In this document: positions 1 through 34,747 of the stretch, one piece after another
Numbering within the stretch: the first letter of the stretch is position 1
Layout of the letters: every line of letters starts with the position of its first letter
Source: a virus
Length of the DNA: 34,747 nucleotides
Virus record (IMG/VR): IMGVR_UViG_3300031237_000256
Coordinates: 1 to 34,747 of that record
Direction: 5' to 3' (one strand)
Program-made: the position numbers and the translations under genes
The notes under the pieces: generated by a model
Told to the model about the DNA's origin: nothing
The model's database searches: none
What the model saw: only the letters and a program-made list of their open reading frames with translations

Positions 1-228
1 ATGAGTGCACGTCCGTACCGGCTGAGCGAAGAGGACAACCTGCGCCTGTTCCACATCCAGCAATCCCTGCGCTTCGTGCGTTATCTGGCAGAGGCTCCCC
101 AGCAGAGCGAGATAGAGACCGACCTGCTGGCCAGTTATCTGTGGTTGATCGAGGCCCAGATAGGGCAGGTGATGGATTCGGCCGAGCAGAGCACCGCCTC
201 AAGGCCGCGGCGGAGCGAAACGAAATGA
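1..228 (+). CDS. small protein of unknown function upstream of the antirepressor
   Basis: A 75-residue reading frame starts at the first base of the window, so its ribosome-binding site and promoter cannot be seen. The sequence is soluble and probably helical, with a charged Ser/Arg-rich tail and no membrane segment or recognisable motif. It stops 16 bases before the antirepressor gene, and that gap carries the antirepressor's ribosome-binding site, so the two are probably co-transcribed. In the circular phage genome it would lie immediately across attP from the integrase. I do not recognise the family. Confidence 0.6.
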   Translation: MSARPYRLSEEDNLRLFHIQQSLRFVRYLAEAPQQSEIETDLLASYLWLIEAQIGQVMDSAEQSTASRPRRSETK

Positions 229-244
229 GAAGGAGAGAGCCGAG

Positions 245-1063
245 ATGCAGGGCACTCAGTTGATGCCTGTACCCTTCCACGAGGACACCGTGGTGTTGGT
301 CGGGAAGGATGGCGAGCCGTTCGTGGCGATGAAGCCCATAGTGGCGAACATGGGGCTGGATTGGAAAAGTCAGTACACCAAGCTAGCCGAGAAGTTCAGT
401 TCAACTATGGTGGAAATCACCACAGTTGCGGAGGACGGGAAACTACGCAGCATGTCTTGCATGCCACTGCGCAAACTCCCGGCATGGCTCTATTCGATCA
501 GTCCCAACAAGGTGAGTCCTGAGTTGCGTGACAAGATCGTCCGCTACCAGGAAGAGTGCGATGACGCCCTCTGGGACTACTGGACCCAAGGCAGCGCTAC
601 CCGTCCCAGCGCGCCCAATGTCACTCAGCAGATCTCCCTGTCTCGCCATCGCCTGGCGTTGCTCAAAGAGCTGCACCGCACCCGCGACCGGACGCTCCGG
701 GCTGCCATCCATGAGCAGTTGGCCCATACCTCCCGCGCCCTGGGGCTGAGCGTGCCTGAGCTCGACAGCATTGGTCAGGCTGACCCGGAGCTGCCGGATG
801 TATTGAGGGTGTTCTGGGAGGCGTTGGCTTTTCTAGATAGCAAAGGGGTGGAATACAACCATGCGTGCTCCACTAATCTGCTGGCCATCAACCTGCCAGA
901 GCTGGCCCGCCTGCTGATCGAGCACGGCCATCCGCTGCGTTTCGACAGAGCCCTGCGTCAAGCTCTGTCGCAAAGCAGCTCTCCGCGTTGTCTGCGCAGG
1001 AATCACGCAGTGCACAGTCGGATCATTGGCAAGGCGGTTCGGTGCTTGGTATTCGAGCGTTAA
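245..1063 (+). CDS. phage antirepressor, P22-type N-terminal domain with two extra modules
   Basis: The 272-residue protein begins with a P22_AR_N-like antirepressor domain at about residues 8-115 (VVLVGKDGEPFVAMKP, then the GLDWKSQYTKL segment and the LPAWLYSISPNKV segment). Residues about 127-178 form a helical module that recurs in the AntA-type protein at 28879-29421, ending LDSIGQ here and LESVGR there. Residues about 190-270 form a third module that recurs at the C-terminus of the replication protein at 30388-33147 (FWEALAFL here, FWEVFDYL there; INLPEL here, INLNEF there; KAVRCLVFE here, TTVKCWMFQ there). AGGAG precedes the ATG. Proteins of this class inactivate phage repressors by binding them; the partners here would be the repressors at 26848-27975. 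The role of the two shared modules is unknown. Confidence 0.85.
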   Translation: MQGTQLMPVPFHEDTVVLVGKDGEPFVAMKPIVANMGLDWKSQYTKLAEKFSSTMVEITTVAEDGKLRSMSCMPLRKLPAWLYSISPNKVSPELRDKIVRYQEECDDALWDYWTQGSATRPSAPNVTQQISLSRHRLALLKELHRTRDRTLRAAIHEQLAHTSRALGLSVPELDSIGQADPELPDVLRVFWEALAFLDSKGVEYNHACSTNLLAINLPELARLLIEHGHPLRFDRALRQALSQSSSPRCLRRNHAVHSRIIGKAVRCLVFER

Positions 1064-16663: not shown

Positions 16664-17179
16664 ATGGCCCTGCCCAAGAAGCTCAAGCACCTGAACCTGT
16701 TCAACGACGGCAACAGCTACCTCGGCGTCGTCGGCTCCGTCACCCTGCCCAAACTCGGCCGCAAGCTGGAGTCGTTCCGCGGCGGCGGCATGGATGGCCC
16801 GGTCAAGGTCGACCTGGGCCACAGCGACGACGGCCTCCAGCTGGAGTGGACCCTCGGTGGCTGGGATCTGACCCTCCTCAAGCAGTTCGGCATGGTCAAG
16901 GCCGACGGCGTGCAGCTGCGTTTCGCCGGCTCCGTGCAGCGCGACGACACCGGCGAGGTCAGCGCGGTGGAAGTGGTCGTGCGCGGTCGGCACGAGGAAC
17001 TCGACTTCGGCGACGCCAAGCCCGGCGAGGACACCGAGCACAAGATCACCACCACCTGCACCTACTACAAGCTCAGCGTCGACAACGAGCCGATCGTCGA
17101 GATCGACCTGCTCAACTTCGTCCTCATCGTGGACGGCGAGGACCTGCTCGCCGAGCACCGCACCGCCCTCGGCATTTGA
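16664..17179 (+). CDS. FII: tail tube protein, P2 GpFII family
   Basis: The 171-residue product matches P2 FII (172). It begins ALPKKLKHLNLFNDGNSYLG and continues with the conserved VTLPKLGRKLESFRGGGMDG. It polymerises into the inner tube on the tape measure. GGAGAG precedes the ATG, and the gene sits 45 bases after FI. Confidence 0.96.
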   Translation: MALPKKLKHLNLFNDGNSYLGVVGSVTLPKLGRKLESFRGGGMDGPVKVDLGHSDDGLQLEWTLGGWDLTLLKQFGMVKADGVQLRFAGSVQRDDTGEVSAVEVVVRGRHEELDFGDAKPGEDTEHKITTTCTYYKLSVDNEPIVEIDLLNFVLIVDGEDLLAEHRTALGI

Positions 17180-22139: not shown

Positions 22140-22892
22140 TCAAGCCAGTTCTGGCTGGGAACGATGCGCGGCCAGGTTCGAGCGGATATTGGCGTGCTCC
22201 GCCAGGGAATAGCCGACGCCCACCATCGTATGCAGCAGCGGCTTTTCGAACGGCTTGTCGATCATCTGGCGCAGATAGTGGATGTGGCTGCGCAGAGCAG
22301 TATTGTCCGGAACCTCGTCTCCCCACAGAGCTTGTTCCATTGCATCTTTGGAGACCACGGCAGGGCTCTTCTTCATCAGGATCAACAGAATCTTCTGGCA
22401 AATCCTGGGCAGCTGAATGGGCTGGCCGGCCCGGCTCACCCTCATCCGATCGAGGTCAAAACAGAGGTCGCCAACCTGCAGGGTATGCTGGCGGGATCCC
22501 TGGACGCGGCGAAGGATAGCTTCGATTCGCGCCTGCAGCTCCGGCATCGCATAAGGGCAGGGCAAACAGTCGTCGGCTCCGGTGCCCAGCCCCTTGATGC
22601 GTGCCTCCAGATCATTGCCGGCGGTCACCATGATGATCGGGACATCGCTACAGACCTCCTCGCGCAGACGCCGGCAGATCTCGCAACCATCGATGGCCGG
22701 CAGTGTGTCGTGGAGTACGACCAGATCGTGGAGGCCGCTGGACGCTAAATGCAGTCCAGTCGCGCCGTCTTGGGCGCAGTCGACGAGATAACCACTCCGT
22801 TCCAGATAATCGATGGTATTGGAGAGAACATCCCTATTGCTCTCTATGACCAGAATACGCACGAACTGCTCTTTGACGATGGAGCGAGGCAT
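22140..22892 (-). CDS. orphan OmpR/PhoB-type response regulator with degenerate receiver
   Basis: The 250-residue protein has an N-terminal receiver (about 11-125) and a C-terminal winged helix (about 136-232: GDLCFDLDRMRVSRAGQPIQ to HTMVGVGYSL). Alignment by eye to the usual receiver shows LVVLHDTLP where LVVLDLxLP is expected, so the phosphoacceptor Asp is His61. The acidic pocket reads ILVIESN instead of ILVVEDD, and the usual Lys is Cys112 (CLPCPYAMPEL); Thr90 is kept. It probably binds DNA without normal phosphorylation control. No histidine kinase lies nearby. I choose the ATG at 22892; a GTG at 22862 is possible. It faces gene D. Confidence 0.85.
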   Translation of the reverse strand: MPRSIVKEQFVRILVIESNRDVLSNTIDYLERSGYLVDCAQDGATGLHLASSGLHDLVVLHDTLPAIDGCEICRRLREEVCSDVPIIMVTAGNDLEARIKGLGTGADDCLPCPYAMPELQARIEAILRRVQGSRQHTLQVGDLCFDLDRMRVSRAGQPIQLPRICQKILLILMKKSPAVVSKDAMEQALWGDEVPDNTALRSHIHYLRQMIDKPFEKPLLHTMVGVGYSLAEHANIRSNLAAHRSQPELA

Positions 22893-23288
22893 GGGATACC
22901 TGGGGTAACGTTGGTGAGAAGATAGGTAACAAACGGCCGCCAATCCTATGCCGCAAAAATCTTCTCGCCAACGGCAATAATGTAATAAGCAGACAAGTTT
23001 TAAGTGTTAAAAGTATTTCGATTCAATTTATTTGATTTATTTGCTGGTTGTATTTGATTAATTAGCGTTGTGAGTAATCACTGTTGTTCGGCTTGACGTA
23101 TTAAGTGTTCGAAAATTCCTATCGCTTGTTTCTATTTGAATCACCCGTAGCTCTTGATTGATCGCATGGCGTAACTTGGAATTTGTTTCCAATATCAAGG
23201 CGTCGACCGGTTTGGGAGGAAATAGAAAACTCGCTCAGCGGGACTGGAAGCGGTTGCAAAGCGTGACCTGATACATCACACTTTCGGC
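22893..23288. other. AT-rich intergenic stretch with a gene D remnant
   Basis: These 396 bases hold no gene I can support. The first 300 are strikingly AT-rich (several runs around TTTGATTTATTTGC) and contain the response regulator's promoter region, with no clear -35/-10 pair. The rightmost part changes abruptly to phage-like sequence at 23238-23258, a copy of the end of gene D, just before the toxin gene. Confidence 0.6.
23238..23258 (+). repeat. remnant of the gene D 3' end (first copy)
   Basis: This 21-base stretch matches 22064-22084 in gene D at 20 of 21 positions and in the same frame reads RDWKRLQ against REWKRLQ, followed a few codons later by TGA. It is a 3' fragment of a D gene left 31 bases before higB. 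Confidence 0.75.
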
Positions 23289-23567
23289 ATGATTATCAGC
23301 TTCCAGCATAAAGGGTTGCGCCTGTTCTACGAGACGGGCTCGACCAAGGGCATACGTGCCGATCACGCCAAGCGTCTGGCCCGCATGCTGTCATTCATGG
23401 ACCGGGCGACCGTCCCTGGCGATCTGGACATTCCGGGCTGGAGGCTGCATCCGCTGAAGGGCGACCTGGTCGACTACTGGTCGCTCACCGTCAGCGGCAA
23501 CTGGCGAATGATCTTTCGCTTTACCGACCACGACATAGAACTGGTCGACTACCTGGACTACCACTGA
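23289..23567 (+). CDS. higB: HigB-type toxin, RelE/ParE superfamily
   Basis: The 92-residue protein has the HigB family pattern: IISFQHKGLRLFYETGSTKG, the basic HAKRLARMLSFMDRA helix, GWRLHPLKGDLVDYWSLTVS, and the terminal NWRMIFRFTDHDIELVDYLD. Such toxins cut mRNA at the ribosome. The toxin-first order with the antitoxin 14 bases downstream is typical of higBA. It lies right after a gene D remnant. Confidence 0.93.
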   Translation: MIISFQHKGLRLFYETGSTKGIRADHAKRLARMLSFMDRATVPGDLDIPGWRLHPLKGDLVDYWSLTVSGNWRMIFRFTDHDIELVDYLDYH

Positions 23568-23581
23568 ACGGAGGGAAAACC

Positions 23582-23869
23582 ATGGTCATGCACAATCCGC
23601 CGCATCCTGGCGAAACCCTGCTCGAAGACGTGTTGCCCGAGTTGGACATCAGCATCGCCGAGCTGGCCCGTCGCCTGGGCTTCGCCCGTGAAACGCTCTC
23701 GCGCATCCTGCACGGTCGAGCGCCGATCAGCCCCGATCTGGCTGTGCGTCTAGAAATGGCCGGAATCGGCAGCGCTCGCACCTGGTTGGGCGTGCAGGCC
23801 GACTACGACCTGTGGCAGGCACAGCACCGCCAGCAGCCTCATATCGAGCGTTTTGCGGTGCTTGCCTGA
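23582..23869 (+). CDS. higA: HigA-type antitoxin, XRE HTH
   Basis: The 95-residue protein begins HNPPHPGETLLEDVLPELDI, the HigA/VapI signature, followed by an XRE helix-turn-helix (SIAELARRLGFARETLSRIL, about residues 24-43). The tail ADYDLWQAQHRQ is also typical. It should neutralise HigB and repress the operon. GGAGG precedes the ATG. As prophage cargo the pair would favour retention of the prophage. Confidence 0.93.
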   Translation: MVMHNPPHPGETLLEDVLPELDISIAELARRLGFARETLSRILHGRAPISPDLAVRLEMAGIGSARTWLGVQADYDLWQAQHRQQPHIERFAVLA

Positions 23870-24066: not shown

Positions 24067-24882
24067 ATGGAGCTTCAACCGATTGTTAAATGGGCCGGCG
24101 GTAAACGATGGCTAGTTCGGAAGAAAATTGATCTGTTCCCAACGAAGTTTAACAACTACTTCGAGCCTTTTCTCGGTGGTGCAGCTGTCTACTTTCATCT
24201 TCAGCCAAAGAGTGCATTGCTATCAGATGTTAATGCTGAGCTGATTAATGTCTATACAGCAATAAAGGAAGATTGGGAGCGCGTAGCTAGTTTGTTGAGA
24301 TCTCATCAGCGCAGGCACAGCAAGGACTATTACTATCAAGTAAGAAATCAAAGGCCTCGGACCATCTTTACCAAGGCGGCGCGAACGCTCTACCTTAATC
24401 GCACCTGTTGGAACGGCCTTTATAGGGTTAACCTTCAAGGTGAATTCAATGTTCCAATTGGCACAAAGGAAAATGTGCTGATGGATATTGATTCATTCCC
24501 TAAGATTGCTGAGATCTTCCAGGGCGCAGAGTTCAAGGTATGTGATTTTGAGGCTACTCTAGATCTTGCTCAAGAGGGTGACTTTGTATTTATTGATCCA
24601 CCTTATACGGTGAAGCACAACTATAATGGCTTTATCAAATACAACGAAAACCTATTTCGCTGGGAAGATCAGGTTCGCTTGAAAAACGCGGTTGCCCGTG
24701 CAACTAATCGTGGCGCCATGGTCTTGGTTCTGAATGCCAATCATGAATCCGTTGTAAGTCTTTATAAGGGTTATGAACAGATTGTTTTGTCGCGGAGTAA
24801 TGTTCTGGCGGGAAAAAGCGAGTTCAGGGGGACGTACCAAGAACTCGCTATAAAATGTTGGCTGCCAAAAGCTACTATTTGA
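24067..24882 (+). CDS. D12-class DNA adenine N6-methyltransferase
   Basis: The 271-residue protein has the Dam/D12 layout: KWAGGKRWL (residues 8-16), FEPFLGGAAV as the AdoMet-binding motif at 32-41, the RTLYLNRTCWNGLYRVN target region, and the catalytic DPPY at 177-180. It transfers a methyl group from S-adenosylmethionine to adenine, perhaps at GATC, although specificity cannot be read from the sequence. No restriction enzyme gene is adjacent. The DNA is AT-richer than the structural genes. It ends 2 bases from the stop of the convergent DGQHR gene. It may protect phage DNA or belong with that pair. Confidence 0.93.
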   Translation: MELQPIVKWAGGKRWLVRKKIDLFPTKFNNYFEPFLGGAAVYFHLQPKSALLSDVNAELINVYTAIKEDWERVASLLRSHQRRHSKDYYYQVRNQRPRTIFTKAARTLYLNRTCWNGLYRVNLQGEFNVPIGTKENVLMDIDSFPKIAEIFQGAEFKVCDFEATLDLAQEGDFVFIDPPYTVKHNYNGFIKYNENLFRWEDQVRLKNAVARATNRGAMVLVLNANHESVVSLYKGYEQIVLSRSNVLAGKSEFRGTYQELAIKCWLPKATI

Positions 24883-24884
24883 GT

Positions 24885-25121
24885 TTACTCGTCAAAGTAC
24901 TGCTTTTTTAGGTCCTTATATAATGCGCTTTCTCCACTCGTGCCAGGCTTATAATTGTCTACTGTGAAATCAGCATCTGTTAGGTTGATCTGGCTGAATA
25001 CATGGGAAAACTGGCTCTTGCTAATAATTGATCCGATACGTTCTAGATCAATATAGATGTCCTTCAGGAAGCGCATTAGGGCCATGAAACCATTTGTCTT
25101 GCTAAGCATCGCGCCTTTGTT
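24885..25121 (-). pseudogene. displaced C-terminal part of the DGQHR-domain gene
   Basis: This stretch encodes about 78 residues in the frame one base off the upstream DGQHR gene. It reads NKGAMLSKTNGFMALMRFLK and ends with ADFTVDNYKPGTSGESALYK, which I recognise as a typical end of DGQHR proteins. It joins the upstream part smoothly if one A is removed from the A4 run at 25120-25123, giving a 394-residue protein. I do not think it is a separate gene: its own in-frame ATG at 25166 lies inside the upstream coding sequence and has no good ribosome-binding site. Confidence 0.7.
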
Positions 25122-26070
25122 TTGGCGTGTTCCACGCGTCGGGCCATCTTTCCTGTATGGCCTCAAAATAATTCCAGATTACATCAGTAAGATCATAGTC
25201 GCGGTCATCTAGCATCATCCCCCGGAAGATCATCTTCTCAAGTTCTTGCTGTGTCGGCTTTTTAGGCTTTTTGCCTCTCAGATATAAGTCGCGATCTTCA
25301 AGGGCCAGAGCGTTAGGATAGCTTATATGCCTCATTAGCGCTTCAACAAACGCCGCTTGAGTAATGGCAACTGCTTCTGTTTTTGGACCGGCAACTCCTA
25401 GGCGCTTAATCTTATTCCTGAACGGGCTCCCTTCGGTTTCATTGAGGGCAACTGCAACTTGATGGCATAACTTTTGAGGGCTTTTGGCTTTGGCAAGGCT
25501 ATAAAGATCATAAACGAGGCTTTTATTGACCTTGGTTTGAGCCTGATTGACGACCGAAAAGATATACGCCTCGGAAGCAGGGTCCAAATCGACAAAAATA
25601 CTGACATTTAGGTCAAAGCTTTTACCTTGGCTATAGGCTTCTAGACCTTTTATACGATGTTGGCCATCAAGTATTTTAGCGATCTTGTCATAAGGGACCC
25701 CAGAAGATTCTTCATCGCTAGGTGCCTCGAATATACGTAGCCTCCTAGCGTCTGGATCGAACTCGACGCAGCACTCTGGGATCGAAAGTATTATCGCGGT
25801 AGGAAAACATGCATCGAAGGTGTTGACGTACTGATTGAGCTCTTTGATTCGACTTGCGGAGACATGGCGCTGAATGCCAAGCATAGTCTCAAATCCGTGT
25901 TCTTCCTCTTCTACTCTTCGAGTGTCTGCATAAGTGATCTCGATTAGTTTGTCATATGGAATGCTTGCGATAAAAAAACGCCCCAAAGGCTGTTCCACTG
26001 GGATGCAGTCAACACAGATAGACCTATCGTTTGCGCTTTCGGTAAATGGCAAAGGTTGATTATAGCTCAT
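25102..26070 (-). CDS. DGQHR-domain protein (DndB-like), frameshifted near its end
   Basis: The 322-residue frame carries DGQHR at residues 135-139 in the context KIAKILDGQHRIKGLEAY, then FSVVNQAQTKVNKSLVYDL at about 171-189. Both are hallmarks of the DGQHR/DndB family, known from DNA phosphorothioation loci and from phage and defence islands; the biochemical role outside Dnd systems is unclear. The frame leaves the family path after residue 316 and stops at RRDA, while the expected C-terminus continues in the next frame. The start overlaps the membrane protein gene by 11 bases, so the two form an operon. Low GC suggests transfer. Confidence 0.85.
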   Translation of the reverse strand: MSYNQPLPFTESANDRSICVDCIPVEQPLGRFFIASIPYDKLIEITYADTRRVEEEEHGFETMLGIQRHVSASRIKELNQYVNTFDACFPTAIILSIPECCVEFDPDARRLRIFEAPSDEESSGVPYDKIAKILDGQHRIKGLEAYSQGKSFDLNVSIFVDLDPASEAYIFSVVNQAQTKVNKSLVYDLYSLAKAKSPQKLCHQVAVALNETEGSPFRNKIKRLGVAGPKTEAVAITQAAFVEALMRHISYPNALALEDRDLYLRGKKPKKPTQQELEKMIFRGMMLDDRDYDLTDVIWNYFEAIQERWPDAWNTPKQRRDA

Positions 26071-26847: not shown

Positions 26848-27273
26848 TTATGCCGGCATTTTGATATCAGCAACAACCGCTTCCAACGTCTGAACTCGCT
26901 GCTCGAGGACGGTCAGGCGTTTCTTTTCCTCAGCAGCGTCTTGTATCTCCCGCTGCTCGGCCTCGGTGAGTGAGCGAAACAGGGCCAGGATGGCCTCTTC
27001 CCGGGGGTTGTGGGCCGGGCTGCTGGGCGCTGGAGCCGGCGCCGCCGACTCCCCGCGGAACATTGGGCCTTCTCCTGTAAGCAGCCAATCCAACGAAAGG
27101 CCACGCTCTTCGGCGATATCTACGCAAAATGAATAGGGGACTGAATCCCTTGAGCGCCAGTTGCCGACGGTCGCTCTATTTATTCCTGTAGCGGTGCTGA
27201 GTTGTGAGTCGTTTTGGACTCCGAAAACTGTGTGTAGGCGTCCGAGAACTGCTGCTGAGCTTTTTTTATTCAA
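26848..27273 (-). CDS. CI-type phage repressor
   Basis: Starting at a TTG with GGGAGA eight bases upstream, this gives 141 residues. The HTH domain (VLGRLHTVFGVQNDSQLSTA, TGINRATVGNWRSRDSVPY, then LSLDWLLTGEGPMFRG) fits the bacteriophage CI repressor DNA-binding family. The C-terminal half has a Pro/Ala linker and a charged coiled-coil-like tail (EEKKRLTVLEQRVQTLE) instead of a LexA/S24 peptidase, so it should not be cleaved after DNA damage. The frame stays open upstream to an in-frame TGA at 27391-27393, beyond which an older HTH head is encoded. The tail is closely related to that of the repressor at 27535-27975. Confidence 0.78.
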   Translation of the reverse strand: MNKKSSAAVLGRLHTVFGVQNDSQLSTATGINRATVGNWRSRDSVPYSFCVDIAEERGLSLDWLLTGEGPMFRGESAAPAPAPSSPAHNPREEAILALFRSLTEAEQREIQDAAEEKKRLTVLEQRVQTLEAVVADIKMPA

Positions 27274-27495
27274 AATGGCCAATCTCCCGTTGACTGATTC
27301 ATCTCCAGTAAGCAGCCAGTCAAGGGATATTCCCAATTGGGAGCCAATGGCGACTAGTGCATCAATCCGCGGCTCGCGATGTCCGCCAACTCAGTTTTGC
27401 AACGAGCTGTAAGAGATTGCGGTCACTTCGGCCAATTGGCGCAGAGACAGGCCTTTCGCTTCAGCTGCTATACGGATTCGGTCGCCTATCCCCAT
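27274..27495 (-). pseudogene. broken XRE HTH head joined in frame to the CI-type repressor
   Basis: From the ATG at 27495 (AGGAAA upstream) the frame reads GDRIRIAAEAKGLSLRQLAE, then SYSSLQN, a TGA stop at 27391-27393, and then VGGHREPRIDALVAIGSQLG and ISLDWLLTGDE. This is one complete XRE-type HTH interrupted by a single nonsense codon at a position where family members usually have Tyr. The frame then runs without a stop into the CI-type head. Without the TGA it would encode a 215-residue protein with two different HTH heads and one tail. Confidence 0.72.
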
Positions 27496-27534: not shown

Positions 27535-27975
27535 CTAAGCCGAACGCTTATTCGTAGCAAGGGCGGCAGAGAGCTCCGCAACTTGCCGCTCAAGCACTCT
27601 CAGTCGTTTCTTTTCCTCAGCAGCGCCCTGTATCTCCCGTTGCTCGTCCTCATTCAGAGAGCGGAACAAGGCAAGGATGGCTTCTTCCCGGGGATTGCAG
27701 GCTGGGCTGCTGGGAGCTGGAGCCGGCGAGGCCTGCTCTCCACGGAACATCGGGCCTTCTCCGGTAAGGAGCCAGTCAGAAGAAATGTTCAAACGAGAAC
27801 TTATCGTTCGAAGCGCTTCGGCATTAGGCTCGCGCAGCCCAAGCGTGTAGTTCTGCAAGGAACGGTAGGGAATTCCGCATATATCAGCGGCATCCTTGAT
27901 CTTTAGCCCCTTGGCTTGGATTGCCTCCCGCAGTCGCGAGGAAGTTTCCATTTGTTCGTCTTTTTCCGTTGACAT
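27535..27975 (-). CDS. XRE-family phage repressor
   Basis: The 146-residue protein starts at the ATG at 27975 (an ATG at 27951 is possible). The XRE HTH covers about residues 13-70 (RLREAIQAKGLKIKDAADIC, GIPYRSLQNYTLGLREPN, LNISSDWLLTGEGPMFRGE). The tail (SPAPAPSSPA linker, EEAILALFRSLNEDEQREIQ, coiled-coil-like EEKKRLRVLERQVAEL) is nearly the same as in the neighbouring repressor, so the two could form mixed multimers. No S24 peptidase is present. It is divergent from the early operon, and a sigma70-like promoter for that operon overlaps its 5' end. Confidence 0.85.
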   Translation of the reverse strand: MSTEKDEQMETSSRLREAIQAKGLKIKDAADICGIPYRSLQNYTLGLREPNAEALRTISSRLNISSDWLLTGEGPMFRGEQASPAPAPSSPACNPREEAILALFRSLNEDEQREIQGAAEEKKRLRVLERQVAELSAALATNKRSA

Positions 27976-27996
27976 TTCCAAATGAGTGCCTAATAT
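27969..27996 (+). promoter_or_regulatory. sigma70-like early promoter overlapping the repressor start
   Basis: TTGACA (27969-27974), 16 bases, TAATAT (27991-27996) form a near-consensus rightward promoter about 110 bases before the Cro-like gene. It overlaps the 5' end of the divergent XRE repressor gene, so repressor and early transcripts would oppose each other. A weaker leftward pair (TTAGAC, 16 bases, CATATT on the minus strand) overlaps the same area. Confidence 0.55.
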
Positions 27997-28108
27997 GTCG
28001 CCGTATGAGTACAGTCTAACCAACTGGGAATCGTTGAACCATGCACTATCTACGCATCACTTTCGGCGGCCTTATCAAGCGCCGGGCTAGGTCTGAAAGG
28101 CTCCCCCT

Positions 28109-28878: not shown

Positions 28879-29421
28879 ATGTCTACCAGCCTTATCCCTG
28901 TATTCAACGGCGACCTCGATGGGCGCTCCCAGCAGCTCTGCGATGCGCGTGACCTGCACCAGTTCCTGCAGGTCGGCCGTGATTTCAGCACTTGGATCAA
29001 GGACCGTATCGAGCAATACGGCTTCGTCGAGGGAGAGGACTTCTCCCCCGTTTTGGGGAAAAGTACCGGGGGAAGGCCAAGTCAGGAGTACCACCTAACC
29101 CTCGATATGGCCAAGGAGCTGGCCATGGTGGAGAACAACGAAAAGGGCCGTCAGGTGCGCCGCTACTTCATCGCCATGGAGCGGGAGGCACGGGAAAGCC
29201 GCGGGGCTACCTACTTGAGCGTCGGCCAGCAACTGGCCATTCACCGGCAGGTGCCCAAGCTGCTCGGCCTGCTCAAGACGGAAACCGCTCCAGCCATCCG
29301 CCAGACCCTGTACGCGCAGCTCTGCCAGCACTGCCACTTGCTGGCCATTCCGGCGCCTTCGCTGGAGAGCGTGGGGCGCAGCAAGCCGGAGAACGGCGAT
29401 CTGTTTCCGGCACAGGGCTGA
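28879..29421 (+). CDS. AntA/AntB-type phage antirepressor
   Basis: The 180-residue protein has an AntA domain at about residues 14-95 (QLCDARDLHQFLQVGRDFST, WIKDRIEQYGFVEGEDF, then YHLTLDMAKELAMVENNEKG). Residues about 113-168 are a helical module shared with the antirepressor at 245-1063. AntA proteins counteract phage repressors. As the early operon encodes it, it would reinforce induction once the operon is on. AAGGAG precedes the ATG. Confidence 0.9.
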   Translation: MSTSLIPVFNGDLDGRSQQLCDARDLHQFLQVGRDFSTWIKDRIEQYGFVEGEDFSPVLGKSTGGRPSQEYHLTLDMAKELAMVENNEKGRQVRRYFIAMEREARESRGATYLSVGQQLAIHRQVPKLLGLLKTETAPAIRQTLYAQLCQHCHLLAIPAPSLESVGRSKPENGDLFPAQG

Positions 29422-30157: not shown

Positions 30158-30391
30158 ATGAGCAGTATCACCCTGCAAATCCAGCTCGACCGGCAGCAGG
30201 CAGAGGCCTATCTGCGCTGGCTGGTGAGCCAATACGAACAGGTCATGGCCGAGTGCTGGTACGACGACCGTTACCGCCACACTCCGACCGGCTTCCGCGG
30301 CCCCCGCATCCTCAAGGACCACCCGCACATCGTCGGCATCGGCCGCTCGGCGCGTGAGCTGCACAAGCGGCTGCAGGAGCGTGGGCTGTGA
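30158..30391 (+). CDS. small early-operon protein of unknown function
   Basis: The 77-residue protein starts at the ATG at 30158, which has AAAGG at good spacing; a TTG seven codons upstream is less likely. It begins ITLQIQLDRQQAEAYLRWLV and has Trp/Tyr-rich YEQVMAECWYDDRYRHTP. No family is recognised. Its stop overlaps the GTG start of the replication gene (GTGA), so its translation is coupled to replication. Confidence 0.72.
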   Translation: MSSITLQIQLDRQQAEAYLRWLVSQYEQVMAECWYDDRYRHTPTGFRGPRILKDHPHIVGIGRSARELHKRLQERGL

Positions 30392-33147
30392 CCAAGAGTT
30401 TCCCCATGGACCCCTCGATCCGCGGTGAGGTGCTGCGCCGTCTGGAGCAGGACTACGGCCTCAAGCCGCGTTCCGGCACGAAGTATCTGCGCGGCGGCCA
30501 GTGCCCGGCCTGCGGCAAGAAGGAGCTGTTCAGCCGGCAGGACGAGCCCTGGTTCATCAAGTGCGGCCGGGAGTCCAAGTGCGGCCAGCAGTGGCACGTC
30601 AAGGAGCTGTACGAGGACCTGTTCGACGACTGGAGCAAGCGTGCGCCGTCCACCGAAAAGGAGCCGACCGCCACGGCCAAGAGCTACCTGCAGAACGCCC
30701 GCGGCTTTCGTCTGGAGCTGATCGAGGGCTGGTACACCCAGGAGAACTACTGGAGCCGCGAGCTTGGCGAGGGCAGCGCCACCGTGCGCTTCGCCCTGGA
30801 GCAGGGCGGCTACTGGGAGCGGCTGATCGACCGCCCGCACCGCTTCGGCAAGCAGAAGGCGCGCTTCGCTCCCGGCCAGTCGCCCAAAGGGTATTGGTGG
30901 TGCCCGCCGTGCGTGGATCTGTTCCAGGTCAGCGAGCTATGGATCGTCGAAGGCATCTTCGATGCCATCGCCCTGCTGCACCACGGCATCGCGGCCGTGT
31001 CGGCCATGAGCTGCAACCTGTTCCCGGGCGAGTCGCTCAAGGATCTGGCGCGCAACCGCGGCGGAAAGCTGCCGCGCCTGGTCTGGGCGCTGGACAACGA
31101 GCCGGGCGCACAGCGCTATACCCGCCGCTGGGTGAGGGCCGCGCGCGAGCTGGGCTACGCCTGCGAGGCCGCGCAGATCCCGCAGCGCGACGGGCGCAAG
31201 GTGGACTGGAACGACCTGCATCAGCGCTGGCAGTTCGTCGAGGGGGACGACAAACGCGCCGAGCAGCGCGAGCGCGACCTCAAGGAGGCCCGCCACCAGG
31301 GCGCGCGGCTGATCGCCGAGAGCGCCGCGGAAAAGGCGATTCTGCTGTACGAGTGGCGCGAGCGGCACGAATTCCACTTCGGCTTCGAGAACCGCCTGTA
31401 CTGGTTCAAGCTCGACCTGGAGAAGTTCAACAAGGCCAAGCAGGCCCTGGAGGACAGCGAGCACCAGGACGACAAGCTGCTCAACGATCGGCAGATGCGC
31501 GAGAAGGCGCTGCGCCAGTCCGGCTGCGTGGTGGAGATCGCCAACTGCTACCCGCAGGCGCTGTATTTCCAGCGCAACGAGGTGACGGACGAGGCCTGGT
31601 ACTACTTCCGCATCGACTTTCCGCACGATGCGCCGCCGGTACGCAACACCTTCACCGGCGGCCAGGTCGCGGCCGCGTCGGAGTTCAAGAAGCGCCTGCT
31701 GGGCATGGCGGCGGGCGCGGTGTTCACCGGGACCGGCGCCCAGCTGGACAAGATCATGAAGGACCAGCTGTTCGGCCTGAAAACCGTGCAGACCATCGAT
31801 TACATCGGCTACAGCAAGGAGCACGGCTGCTACGTATTCGGCGACCTGGCCGTGCGCGGCGGCATCGTGGAGCAGGCCAACAGCGAGGACTACTTCGAGT
31901 TCAAGCAGCTGCGCCTCAAGACGTTGCAGAAGAGCATCCGCCTGGAGATCGCCCGGGACGACAAGGGCTACCGGGCCGAGTGGCTGGACTGGCTGTGGAC
32001 CTGTTTCGGTGCCCAGGGCATCGTCGCGCTGGCCTTCTGGTTCGGCTCGCTGTTCGCCGAGCAGATCCGCACCGAATTCCAGAGCTTCCCGTTCCTGGAG
32101 GTGACCGGCGAGGCCGGGGCGGGCAAGTCGACCCTGCTGATGTTCCTCTGGAAGCTGTTCGGCCGCCCGGACGAGGAGGGCAAGGATCCGTCGAAGATGT
32201 CCAAGGCTGGCCTGCGCCGCTGGATGGGGCAGGTATCCGGCATGCCGCTGGTACTGCTCGAGGCCGACCGTAGCGACAACGACCGCACCGCCGCCAAGGC
32301 TTACGACTGGGACGAGCTCAAGCCGCTGTTCAACGGTGGCACCCTGGGCGTGACCGGGGTGAAGACCGCGGGCAACGAGACTTACGAGCCGCCGTTCCGC
32401 GGGACCATCGTCATCAGCCAGAACGCCACCGTCGAGGCGAGCGAGGCGATCCTCACCCGTATCGTCAAGCTGCACTTCGTCCGGCCGCAGGTCACCAGCG
32501 CGAGCCGCGCCGCGGCGGACAACCTCAACCACCTGAGCGCCCTGGACGTGAGCCACTTCCTGCTGATGGCCGCCAAGGCCGAGGGGAGGGTGCTGGAGGC
32601 GTTCCGCGAGCGGGTGAGGGCGCACGAGCAGGCTCTGCGTGCCCTGGGCGAGATCCGCATCGAGCGGATCATCAAGAACCACGCCCAGTTGCTGGCCCTG
32701 GTCGATGCGCTGCGCCTGGTGATCCCACTGGGAGAGGAACAGCACGCCGCCGCCGTGCGCGAACTCACTGCCATGGCCATTGCCCGGCAGAGCTCCGTCA
32801 ACGCCGACCCGGTCGAGGTGGCCGAGTTCTGGGAGGTGTTCGACTACCTGCAGGGGATCAACGACGAACCGGTGGTGGACCACAGCAAGAAGCCGGATGT
32901 GATCGCCATCAACCTCAACGAGTTCTGCGAGCGCGCCGCCGAGCACCGCCAGAAGCTGGCCGACATCGGCACCCTGCGCAACCTGCTGCCCAACAGCCGC
33001 TCGCGCAAGTTCCTGGAGAAGAACCGTGCCGTCGACAGCGCCGTGCGCGCGGCCTTCAACCTACGCAACCCCATGTCCAGCCGTTGCACCACGGTGAAGT
33101 GCTGGATGTTCCAGAACCCCGACGCCGGCAAGCGCGGCAACGCTTGA
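30388..33147 (+). CDS. phage replication protein, zinc finger-Toprim-helicase
   Basis: The 919-residue protein begins at a GTG that overlaps the previous stop. Its layout is a zinc finger (C39, C42, C59, C65), a Toprim domain with E188 in WIVEGIFDA and D236 in WALDNE, a long middle region, and a P-loop ATPase/helicase with Walker A GEAGAGKST at 574-582 and Walker B VLLEAD at 622-627. The C-terminal 105 residues share a module with the antirepressor at 245-1063. It should act as primase-helicase at the phage origin, in place of the P2 A initiator nuclease, so replication is likely theta-type rather than rolling-circle. Confidence 0.92.
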   Translation: MTKSFPMDPSIRGEVLRRLEQDYGLKPRSGTKYLRGGQCPACGKKELFSRQDEPWFIKCGRESKCGQQWHVKELYEDLFDDWSKRAPSTEKEPTATAKSYLQNARGFRLELIEGWYTQENYWSRELGEGSATVRFALEQGGYWERLIDRPHRFGKQKARFAPGQSPKGYWWCPPCVDLFQVSELWIVEGIFDAIALLHHGIAAVSAMSCNLFPGESLKDLARNRGGKLPRLVWALDNEPGAQRYTRRWVRAARELGYACEAAQIPQRDGRKVDWNDLHQRWQFVEGDDKRAEQRERDLKEARHQGARLIAESAAEKAILLYEWRERHEFHFGFENRLYWFKLDLEKFNKAKQALEDSEHQDDKLLNDRQMREKALRQSGCVVEIANCYPQALYFQRNEVTDEAWYYFRIDFPHDAPPVRNTFTGGQVAAASEFKKRLLGMAAGAVFTGTGAQLDKIMKDQLFGLKTVQTIDYIGYSKEHGCYVFGDLAVRGGIVEQANSEDYFEFKQLRLKTLQKSIRLEIARDDKGYRAEWLDWLWTCFGAQGIVALAFWFGSLFAEQIRTEFQSFPFLEVTGEAGAGKSTLLMFLWKLFGRPDEEGKDPSKMSKAGLRRWMGQVSGMPLVLLEADRSDNDRTAAKAYDWDELKPLFNGGTLGVTGVKTAGNETYEPPFRGTIVISQNATVEASEAILTRIVKLHFVRPQVTSASRAAADNLNHLSALDVSHFLLMAAKAEGRVLEAFRERVRAHEQALRALGEIRIERIIKNHAQLLALVDALRLVIPLGEEQHAAAVRELTAMAIARQSSVNADPVEVAEFWEVFDYLQGINDEPVVDHSKKPDVIAINLNEFCERAAEHRQKLADIGTLRNLLPNSRSRKFLEKNRAVDSAVRAAFNLRNPMSSRCTTVKCWMFQNPDAGKRGNA

Positions 33148-33157
33148 TCGGCTGTAT

Positions 33158-33181
33158 CAACCCCAAGGAGAAGCACCATGC
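33158..33181 (+). repeat. duplicated translation start region, first copy
   Basis: A 24-base stretch that contains AAGGAG and the ATG of the 46-residue gene is repeated exactly at 33380-33403. Confidence 0.8.
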
Positions 33182-33370: not shown

Positions 33371-33379
33371 AGGCCGGAC

Positions 33380-33403
33380 CAACCCCAAGGAGAAGCACCA
33401 TGC
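33380..33403 (+). repeat. duplicated translation start region, second copy
   Basis: An exact second copy of the 24-base segment at 33158-33181, including the ribosome-binding site and start codon, 222 bases downstream. Confidence 0.8.
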
Positions 33404-33577: not shown

Positions 33578-34747
33578 ATGGCAGATGGAGTGGAGATCCG
33601 TGGCAATTCGCTGCGGGTCTATTTTCGTTACGACGGCGAGCTGTGCCGGGAGCAGATCCCTGGCGGCGCATCGCCGGTCAACCAGGAGCATGCCCGGCGA
33701 CTGGTGGAGATCATCGAGTTCGAGATTCAGGCGGGTACGTTCGATTACGCCCGGCACTTCCCTGACTCGGCCAGGGTGAAAACCAACACCCTGGGGCATT
33801 ACATCGACCTGTGGCTGGATATCAAACGCAACGATATGTCGGCCAGCGGGTTTCGGGGCTACCTGAGCCGCGTGGAGAACCACATCCGGCCCCGCTGGGG
33901 CGAGGAGCAGGCCGACAGAATCGACCACCTGGACCTGCAGCATTGGGTGCAGCGCGATCTGATGCCCACGCTGCACAACAAGACCGTGCGCGAGATCGTC
34001 AGCCACCTGCGCCAGATCTTCCGCCTGTATCGGACGCGCAACAAATCGGCCCACGACCCGACCGATGGGATCGTCATCAAGCTGCCGGATGCGGACGATC
34101 CGGACCCGTTTTCGCGTGATGAGATCCGCCAGATCCTCGAAACCGAAACTGAGCGCGCCCACGAGCTGAACATGATCGAGTTCATGCTCTGGACCGGTCC
34201 GCGCGTGAGCGAGGCCATGGCGCTGGCCTGGGAGGATGTCGACCTCGAAGCCGGAACGGTGGCGTTCCGGCGGGCGAGGGTGCGCAGCCAGTACAAGGTG
34301 ACCAAGACGCGGCGCTCGACGCGGCGGGTGGCACTCTTGGCGCCAGCACTACGCGCGCTACGGGCGCAGGCGAAGCTGACCCAGCACCTGCCGTCGGTGG
34401 AGATCGAGTACACCGATCGGGACAACCGGACCAAGCGCAAGCAGAAGGTGAGGTTCGTGTTCCTGAACAGCGCGAGCGGCGAGCCGTATTCGACATCGGA
34501 CACGCTGCGCAACGGCTGGTGGAAGTCTCACTTGAAGAAGGCGGGAGTGAGACAGCGCGGGCCGAACCAGTGTCGGCATACGTTCGCCAGTCAGATGCTG
34601 AGTAGTGGAATCGCGCCGCCGGAGTGGATCGCCGATCAGATGGGGCACACGTCCACGGCGATGATTTTCAAGCACTACGCCAAGTGGATCAGCAAGGACG
34701 GCCCGGACTATCCGAGCCTGATCAACCAGGCGCTGAATCTGTCCTGA
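33578..34747 (+). CDS. int: tyrosine-recombinase integrase
   Basis: The 389-residue protein has an N-terminal arm-binding part, a core-binding SAM-like domain (about 75-170, NTLGHYIDLWLDIKRNDMSA onward) and the catalytic domain (about 175-380). Catalytic residues are R209 (WTGPRVSEA), K243 (VTKTRRST), R333 (QCRHTFAS), H357 (MGHTS) and Y367 (KHYAKW). The position of the box II His is N330. It catalyses site-specific integration at attP, which should lie just past the end of the window; prophage gene 1 would then follow in the circular genome. No excisionase is encoded beside it. Confidence 0.95.
   Translation: MADGVEIRGNSLRVYFRYDGELCREQIPGGASPVNQEHARRLVEIIEFEIQAGTFDYARHFPDSARVKTNTLGHYIDLWLDIKRNDMSASGFRGYLSRVENHIRPRWGEEQADRIDHLDLQHWVQRDLMPTLHNKTVREIVSHLRQIFRLYRTRNKSAHDPTDGIVIKLPDADDPDPFSRDEIRQILETETERAHELNMIEFMLWTGPRVSEAMALAWEDVDLEAGTVAFRRARVRSQYKVTKTRRSTRRVALLAPALRALRAQAKLTQHLPSVEIEYTDRDNRTKRKQKVRFVFLNSASGEPYSTSDTLRNGWWKSHLKKAGVRQRGPNQCRHTFASQMLSSGIAPPEWIADQMGHTSTAMIFKHYAKWISKDGPDYPSLINQALNLS

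Follow-up and report, generated by a model that had tools for sequence, protein, structure and literature searches.

The window analysed here, the whole stretch of 34,747 nucleotides of record IMGVR_UViG_3300031237_000256, derives from a Pseudomonas-type temperate phage. Its left end carries an antirepressor gene, ant, whose product consists of a P22_AR_N domain followed by two modules, designated M and C. The genes and modules that bear on this study are as follows.

1..228, + strand, small ORF (orf1) of 75 aa directly 5' of ant, in a position like that of icd in a C4-ant operon
245..1063, + strand, ant (antirepressor), 272 aa, P22_AR_N + M + C
269..598, + strand, N module of ant, P22_AR_N, residues 9-118 (Pfam PF10547, E 3e-48)
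617..805, + strand, M module of ant, residues 125-187, predicted helical hairpin, common with the tail of the AntA-type protein
812..1060, + strand, C module of ant, residues 190-272, predicted to fold as a winged helix whose wing has 8 residues, common with the C-terminus of the primase-helicase
26848..27336, - strand, second repressor-like gene (Phage_CI_repr)
27535..28023, - strand, CI/RstR-like repressor (HTH_3 and repressor families)
28879..29421, + strand, AntA-type antirepressor, AntA domain at residues 22-87, without a C module
29218..29406, + strand, M module of the AntA-type protein, residues 114-176 (BLASTP, profile-profile comparison)
30388..33147, + strand, toprim primase-helicase (phrog_1139), 919 aa
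32827..33144, + strand, C module of the primase, residues 814-919, predicted to fold as a winged helix whose wing is longer and partly helical
33578..34747, + strand, integrase, which abuts a tRNA attachment site in a near-identical relative

The P22_AR_N domain at the N-terminus of Ant scored 163 bits (PF10547, gathering cut-off 30.7), and the AntA domain of the 28879-29421 protein scored 102.2 bits (PF08346, gathering score 27). The residues of Ant beyond P22_AR_N gave no Pfam match, P22_AR_C included. A match of the AntA-type protein to Toxin_15 (E 0.0019) was under the curated cut-off and was judged to be due to chance. The repressor encoded at 27535-28023 is presumably the target of the antirepressors, and that encoded at 26848-27336 may be a target as well. 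These two genes are adjacent, and their products have near-identical C-terminal tails (GEGPMFRGE...NPREEAILALFRSL..) and different DNA-binding parts.

Several other features of the window were recorded. An ORF 3' of ant (1152-2189, 345 aa) has no Pfam or NCBIfam match and is cargo-like. Accessory genes at 22140-22943, 23289-23869, 24067-24882, and 25102-26070 sit between the tail and immunity regions; judged by eye, they would encode a HigBA-type pair, a Dam-like methylase, a DGQHR-type protein, and a response regulator. 3' of the primase gene, a ribosome-binding leader of 32 bp with the core CAACCCCAAGGAGAAGCACCATGC occurs twice (33150-33181 and 33372-33403), and in some relatives there are three copies. 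In three related loci, the last part of the primase gene overlaps with a second ORF, of ca. 290-340 aa, that resembles the helicase domain of the primase (L019, 16580-17476; L125, 8768-9631; L132, 14341-15204), and in a fourth (L168, 14483-16681) such an ORF extends over 733 aa from stop to stop.

No att site is visible in the window record, the ends of which are cut at ORF boundaries. A genome that is 97-99% identical to the window phage over the matching parts and that lacks ant (G064) has at its ends a 29-bp direct repeat, TGGCGGAGGCGGTGAGATTCGAACTCACG, which is part of a tRNA gene ca. 125 bp beyond int. Since this repeat lies beside int, the int-attP of the excised circle would be located between the primase gene and the left-end variable region that holds ant. 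By analogy with this relative, an earlier reading of the DNA made from its letters and ORFs (the sequence-only reading), which had placed int-attP between the two genes in the circular phage, appears to be correct.

The same reading had aligned by eye the C-terminus of Ant with the last ca. 105 residues of the primase-helicase, and the middle of Ant with the AntA-type protein. BLASTP aligned residues 190-260 of Ant with residues 814-886 of the primase (33% identity, E 1e-6) and residues 125-187 of Ant with residues 114-176 of the AntA-type protein (29% identity, E 3e-6). In addition, phrog_20645, a family of 156 aa whose function is not known, matched all three window proteins, namely Ant at residues 126-271 (1.6e-40), the AntA-type protein at 113-174 (1.9e-6), and the primase at 810-909 (1.7e-6). 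Because both searches fell in exactly the parts that had been aligned by eye, the alignment was right in all three proteins. Profiles were then compared that had been built from the IMG/VR relatives of each protein and split by architecture so that no similarity was lent across the groups. The C modules of Ant and the primase matched with a probability of 99.6% (E 5e-24, score 132), far above 60 column shuffles (mean 11.8, maximum 21.8) and the reversed profile (9.9). The M module of Ant matched the tail of the AntA-type protein with a probability of 98% (E 3e-13, score 66.8; maximum of the shuffles, 16.2). The cross controls, Ant C against the AntA tail and Ant M against the primase C module, showed no relation in the profile-profile comparison (scores of 9-10). 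Columns shared by the C modules were F-W in helix 1, N-H, A-x-N-L, L-R-x-x-L-x-x-S, and S...C-W-x-F; accordingly, the motifs FW, NH, A-NL, S, and C-W-F that had been noticed in the letters are genuine. At the level of sequence, the homology of the C module between the antirepressor and the primase-helicase, and of the M module between the antirepressor and the AntA-type protein, is thus real and well supported.

Among the loci of relatives, M+C follows four different N-domains. Besides P22_AR_N, these are AntA (L137, L181, and L182), Bro-N (L169, L173, L185, and L189), and ORF6N (L167). M+C also forms a protein of ca. 150 residues by itself in L251 and L253, and probably in L120 and L248. M without C was found behind AntA in 28 distinct proteins and behind P22_AR_N in L123, and C without M forms the C-terminal end of 91 distinct toprim primase-helicases. 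Since M also occurs without C, M is regarded as the common core of the antirepressors and C as an optional tail. The earlier view that three proteins of one phage hold two mobile modules is therefore borne out by BLASTP, PHROG, the profiles, and the architectures alike.

The M+C antirepressor gene occupies at least four genome positions among related P2-like phages: beside the portal gene at the attachment end, in the gap between the head/lysis genes and the baseplate genes, in the gap between the tail tube and tape measure genes, and beside the immunity region, as if the C4 cassette described below moved as a unit. Shifts relative to the window were seen in L009, L010, L011, L012, L018, L019, L168, L181, and L182, some of them in the tail operon. 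Bro-N-M-C antirepressor genes stand in tandem next to the portal gene in L173 (376-2208), and likewise in L243. One contig (L123, the contig of L009) holds two complete C4/a1b1/isrK elements (352-551 and 16716-16914), one preceding a P22_AR_N-M-C gene and the other a P22_AR_N-M gene without C. In a Pseudomonas chromosome (G349), two intact P22_AR_N-M-C genes (L261, 16679-17560; L264, 42-950) have chemoreceptor, permease, and peptidase genes as neighbours; in this genome, the only one in which the context was read, no phage genes or C4 were close by. A further genome (G305) likewise has two intact P22_AR_N-M-C genes. No primase of the window's type is present in the whole genome of G349.

The genes upstream of ant were compared with those of relatives. 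A C4 RNA (RF01695) was found by Rfam 200-430 bp upstream of ant in 13 measured loci (L009-L017, L137, L183, L186, and L270), and C4 is also upstream of ant in L167, L169, L237, L239-L241, L248, L260, and several Pseudomonas chromosomes. C4 is often accompanied by the a1b1 target (RF03163) or isrK. Where the upstream DNA is intact, the M+C antirepressor gene of most relatives lies in a C4-antisense-RNA cassette of the order C4, small ORF, and ant. The orf1 of the window has no PHROG match; it shows 46% identity to the ORF at the same place in L270, L004, and L005 and 33% identity to that in L014, and its homologue lies between C4 RNA and ant in L270 and L014. In the circular P. aeruginosa record NZ_CP077991 (L270), C4 (42475-42560), the orf1 homologue (42608-42826), ant (42984-43835), and then the portal gene follow one another, which is the gene order of the window. 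This 47.5-kb circular record, named 'plasmid p3', consists of a P2-like phage and a satellite-like block (31110-41194) with capsid, ogr, toprim plus DUF927, and integrase genes.

No C4 match was obtained by Rfam in the window, because the record begins at the ATG of the small ORF, 244 bp upstream of ant. By analogy with the relatives, C4 would lie just outside the record. An exact search for the left end of the window in viral contigs gave no match. The M+C antirepressor genes without C4 at the gathering score include L018, L019, L168, L173, L180, L181, L189, L235, L236, and L238; an Arc-like repressor is encoded upstream of ant in L018, and by eye an HTH-like protein in L019 and L168. LexA control was considered and rejected, as no SOS box (CTG-N10-CAG, 11/16 positions or better) was found within 1.5 kb upstream of 30 ant genes, the window contributing only 244 bp of upstream DNA.

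The AlphaFold model of Ant M+C shows a two-helix hairpin followed by helix-strand-helix-helix-strand-strand (pLDDT 87). The model of the primase C module, built from a separate alignment, has the same topology (H-b-H-H-b-wing-b) with an extra helix in the wing (pLDDT 90), i.e. a predicted winged helix at the C-terminus of the primase-helicase. The two C modules thus share one predicted fold. Against solved structures, the primase C module matched the C-terminal domain of SaPIBov1 Rep (452-553; Z 5.6, 83 aligned residues, rmsd 3.2), TcpK (Z 5.3), 3kq5 (5.2), and SCCmec Cch (4.7), and the Ant C module matched TcpK (5vfy, Z 6.0, 81 aligned residues, rmsd 3.1; TcpK-oriT 5vfx, 5.9) and then the DUF1528 domain 2ipq (Z 5.8). 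With Z scores below 8 and Foldseek E-values above 0.1, these middling matches indicate a common arrangement and not descent. SaPI Rep and Cch were not among the matches listed for the Ant model, a list filled by helical-hairpin matches to M. A sequence search of the C modules against solved structures gave no match, and Foldseek against BFVD gave no informative match. The mean net charge from helix 3 to strand 3 was +5.0 in the antirepressors and +6.8 in the primases, and was +8 in each of the two window proteins. A wing of 8 residues was seen in 24 of 26 antirepressors, compared with one of 14-23 residues in 26 of 27 primases; the window's own pair has 8 residues in Ant versus 20 in the primase. 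The C-terminal domain of SaPI Rep recognises the origin, and the isolated C-terminal domain of Cch2 bound a putative origin (PMC7581432). The C module would thus most likely serve to bind DNA.

The sequence-only reading had further proposed that a common C module could let Ant bind the same partner as the replication protein and so link induction to replication. In a tree of 53 C modules, the primases and the antirepressors fell on opposite sides of one branch (87/95). One old exchange fits this split, with no recent copying, and the tree led us to reject recent gene conversion of ant with the primase gene of the same phage. Among 15 phages carrying both genes, the main antirepressor clade showed no correlation between the divergence of Ant C and that of the primase beside it (Mantel r -0.16, p 0.70). 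Over all these phages, the correlation (r 0.44, p 0.01) arises from two deep groups, and a reading of it as co-evolution was therefore rejected. The primase C module is identical in G002 and G013, but the Ant C module differs. The similarity of C modules within own pairs was slightly over random overall (p 0.006), and one Bro-N-type antirepressor (L185, 1262-2221) is the only one with a 21-residue wing, the same length as that of the primase on its own contig (L207), nearly all the others having 8 residues. Of the 14 virus records that are 30 kb or longer and encode an M+C antirepressor, 13 also have a module primase; in 29 control records, whose antirepressors have related N-domains and no C module, it was never found. 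This co-occurrence is confounded by lineage, since all are P2-like phages with one replication type, and none of 40 sampled primase-bearing records had an M+C antirepressor. Around the primase, the immunity region, and ant, no repeated DNA or iterons were found beyond the duplicated ribosome-binding leader after the primase, and none of the iteron-like kind was found downstream of the primase.

If the C module of Ant bound the DNA site (origin) or partner of the primase, induction and the start of replication would occur together. The homology and common fold of the modules, the co-occurrence, the slight own-pair similarity, and the wing of L185 speak for this. Against them stand the separate clades, the lack of mirrored divergence in the main clade, the difference in wing length, the chromosomal ant copies without a module primase, and the lack of shared repeats, so that the proposal of a same partner is not supported and we consider it very unlikely. 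We rate as similarly unlikely a fuller version, in which Ant, through its winged helix, would contact the primase-helicase or the region of the phage origin and would act on replication, recruiting or tuning it, at the moment of induction when it also lifts repression. Coupling of induction and replication through the C module is possible but not supported, and today the module seems not to share a site with the primase of its own phage. It is also rather doubtful that the antirepressor has kept C for oligomerisation and not for DNA binding, as a domain for protein-protein contact or dimerisation, its short wing reflecting a lost DNA contact. In TcpK, DNA is contacted by the wing, the canonical recognition helix (helix 3) lying hidden in the interface of the dimer (PMC6137059); in the modules compared here, the helix-3 region is among the best conserved parts and the wing of the antirepressors is reduced. 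Furthermore, AntA-M and some P22_AR_N-M proteins lack C, so that C is dispensable for this type of antirepressor. The strongly basic stretch from helix 3 to strand 3 in the antirepressors argues against a purely protein-binding role.

The cassette might instead be mainly a mobile agent that targets other prophages in trans or serves as a helper signal, and not the phage's own switch. Its several positions, the tail operon included, the tandem copies, the phage with two C4 cassettes, and the solitary intact ant copies amid host genes are consistent with this idea, and trans-acting antirepressors are known from Gifsy prophages (PMC3121763). Most copies, however, are in prophages that look complete and have a repressor of their own, which makes it distinctly unlikely. 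We favour, with moderate confidence, the reading that Ant is a modular protein through which a second, mobile immunity cassette of the immI type acts, under the control of C4 antisense RNA.

In P1, c4 RNA represses the synthesis of the Ant antirepressor (PMC8546580). By analogy with P1 and P22, C4 RNA would keep the cassette silent in the lysogen, and Ant would be produced when C4 control fails or when the phage enters a new cell. The N-domain of Ant would then inactivate the repressor encoded at 26848-27336, that encoded at 27535-28023, or both. The M hairpin probably joins or dimerises Ant chains, and the C winged helix would most likely hold the Ant complex on DNA. The C module shares a common ancestor with the origin-binding-type winged helix at the end of the primase-helicase; it was probably exchanged once, long ago, between replication and regulatory proteins and then moved with M behind several N-domains.

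The system appears to be of a known kind, the modular C4-controlled phage antirepressor. Like the immI operon of P1 (c4-icd-ant) and its P22 and P4 relatives, it has, in the relatives of the window phage, C4, a small ORF, and an antirepressor, to which these relatives add a1b1 and an isrK-like element. It differs from these operons in the M+C tail, in a small ORF without a PHROG match, and in the several positions of the cassette, the late operon included. P22 Ant (PF10547) shows 49% identity to the window Ant over residues 9-121, but the C-terminal part of the latter is different, with M and C and no P22_AR_C match. The primase C module has the same predicted fold and the same position at the helicase end as in SaPI Rep, SCCmec Cch, and similar initiator helicases; unlike these, the window helicase is fused to a toprim primase, and there is no detectable sequence relation to the solved structures. 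Of the fold matches that the two C modules have in common, the best is TcpK of pCW3, an oriT-binding winged helix, which differs in being a stand-alone relaxosome protein with 6-10% identity. In the part of the 2002 literature available to us, the same N-domains (AntA, Bro-N, ORF6N, and P22_AR_N) swap tails beside C4/isrK RNAs, and that part reports no tail common with a resident primase.

These results assign to C4-RNA immunity cassettes a sizeable set of the antirepressors that P2-like Pseudomonas phages encode. They also give names to two domains without a Pfam entry, the helical M of several antirepressor types and the winged-helix C of regulators and primase-helicases. The C module is thereby given a candidate DNA-binding role, and whether antirepressors communicate with the replication apparatus can be approached through one small domain.
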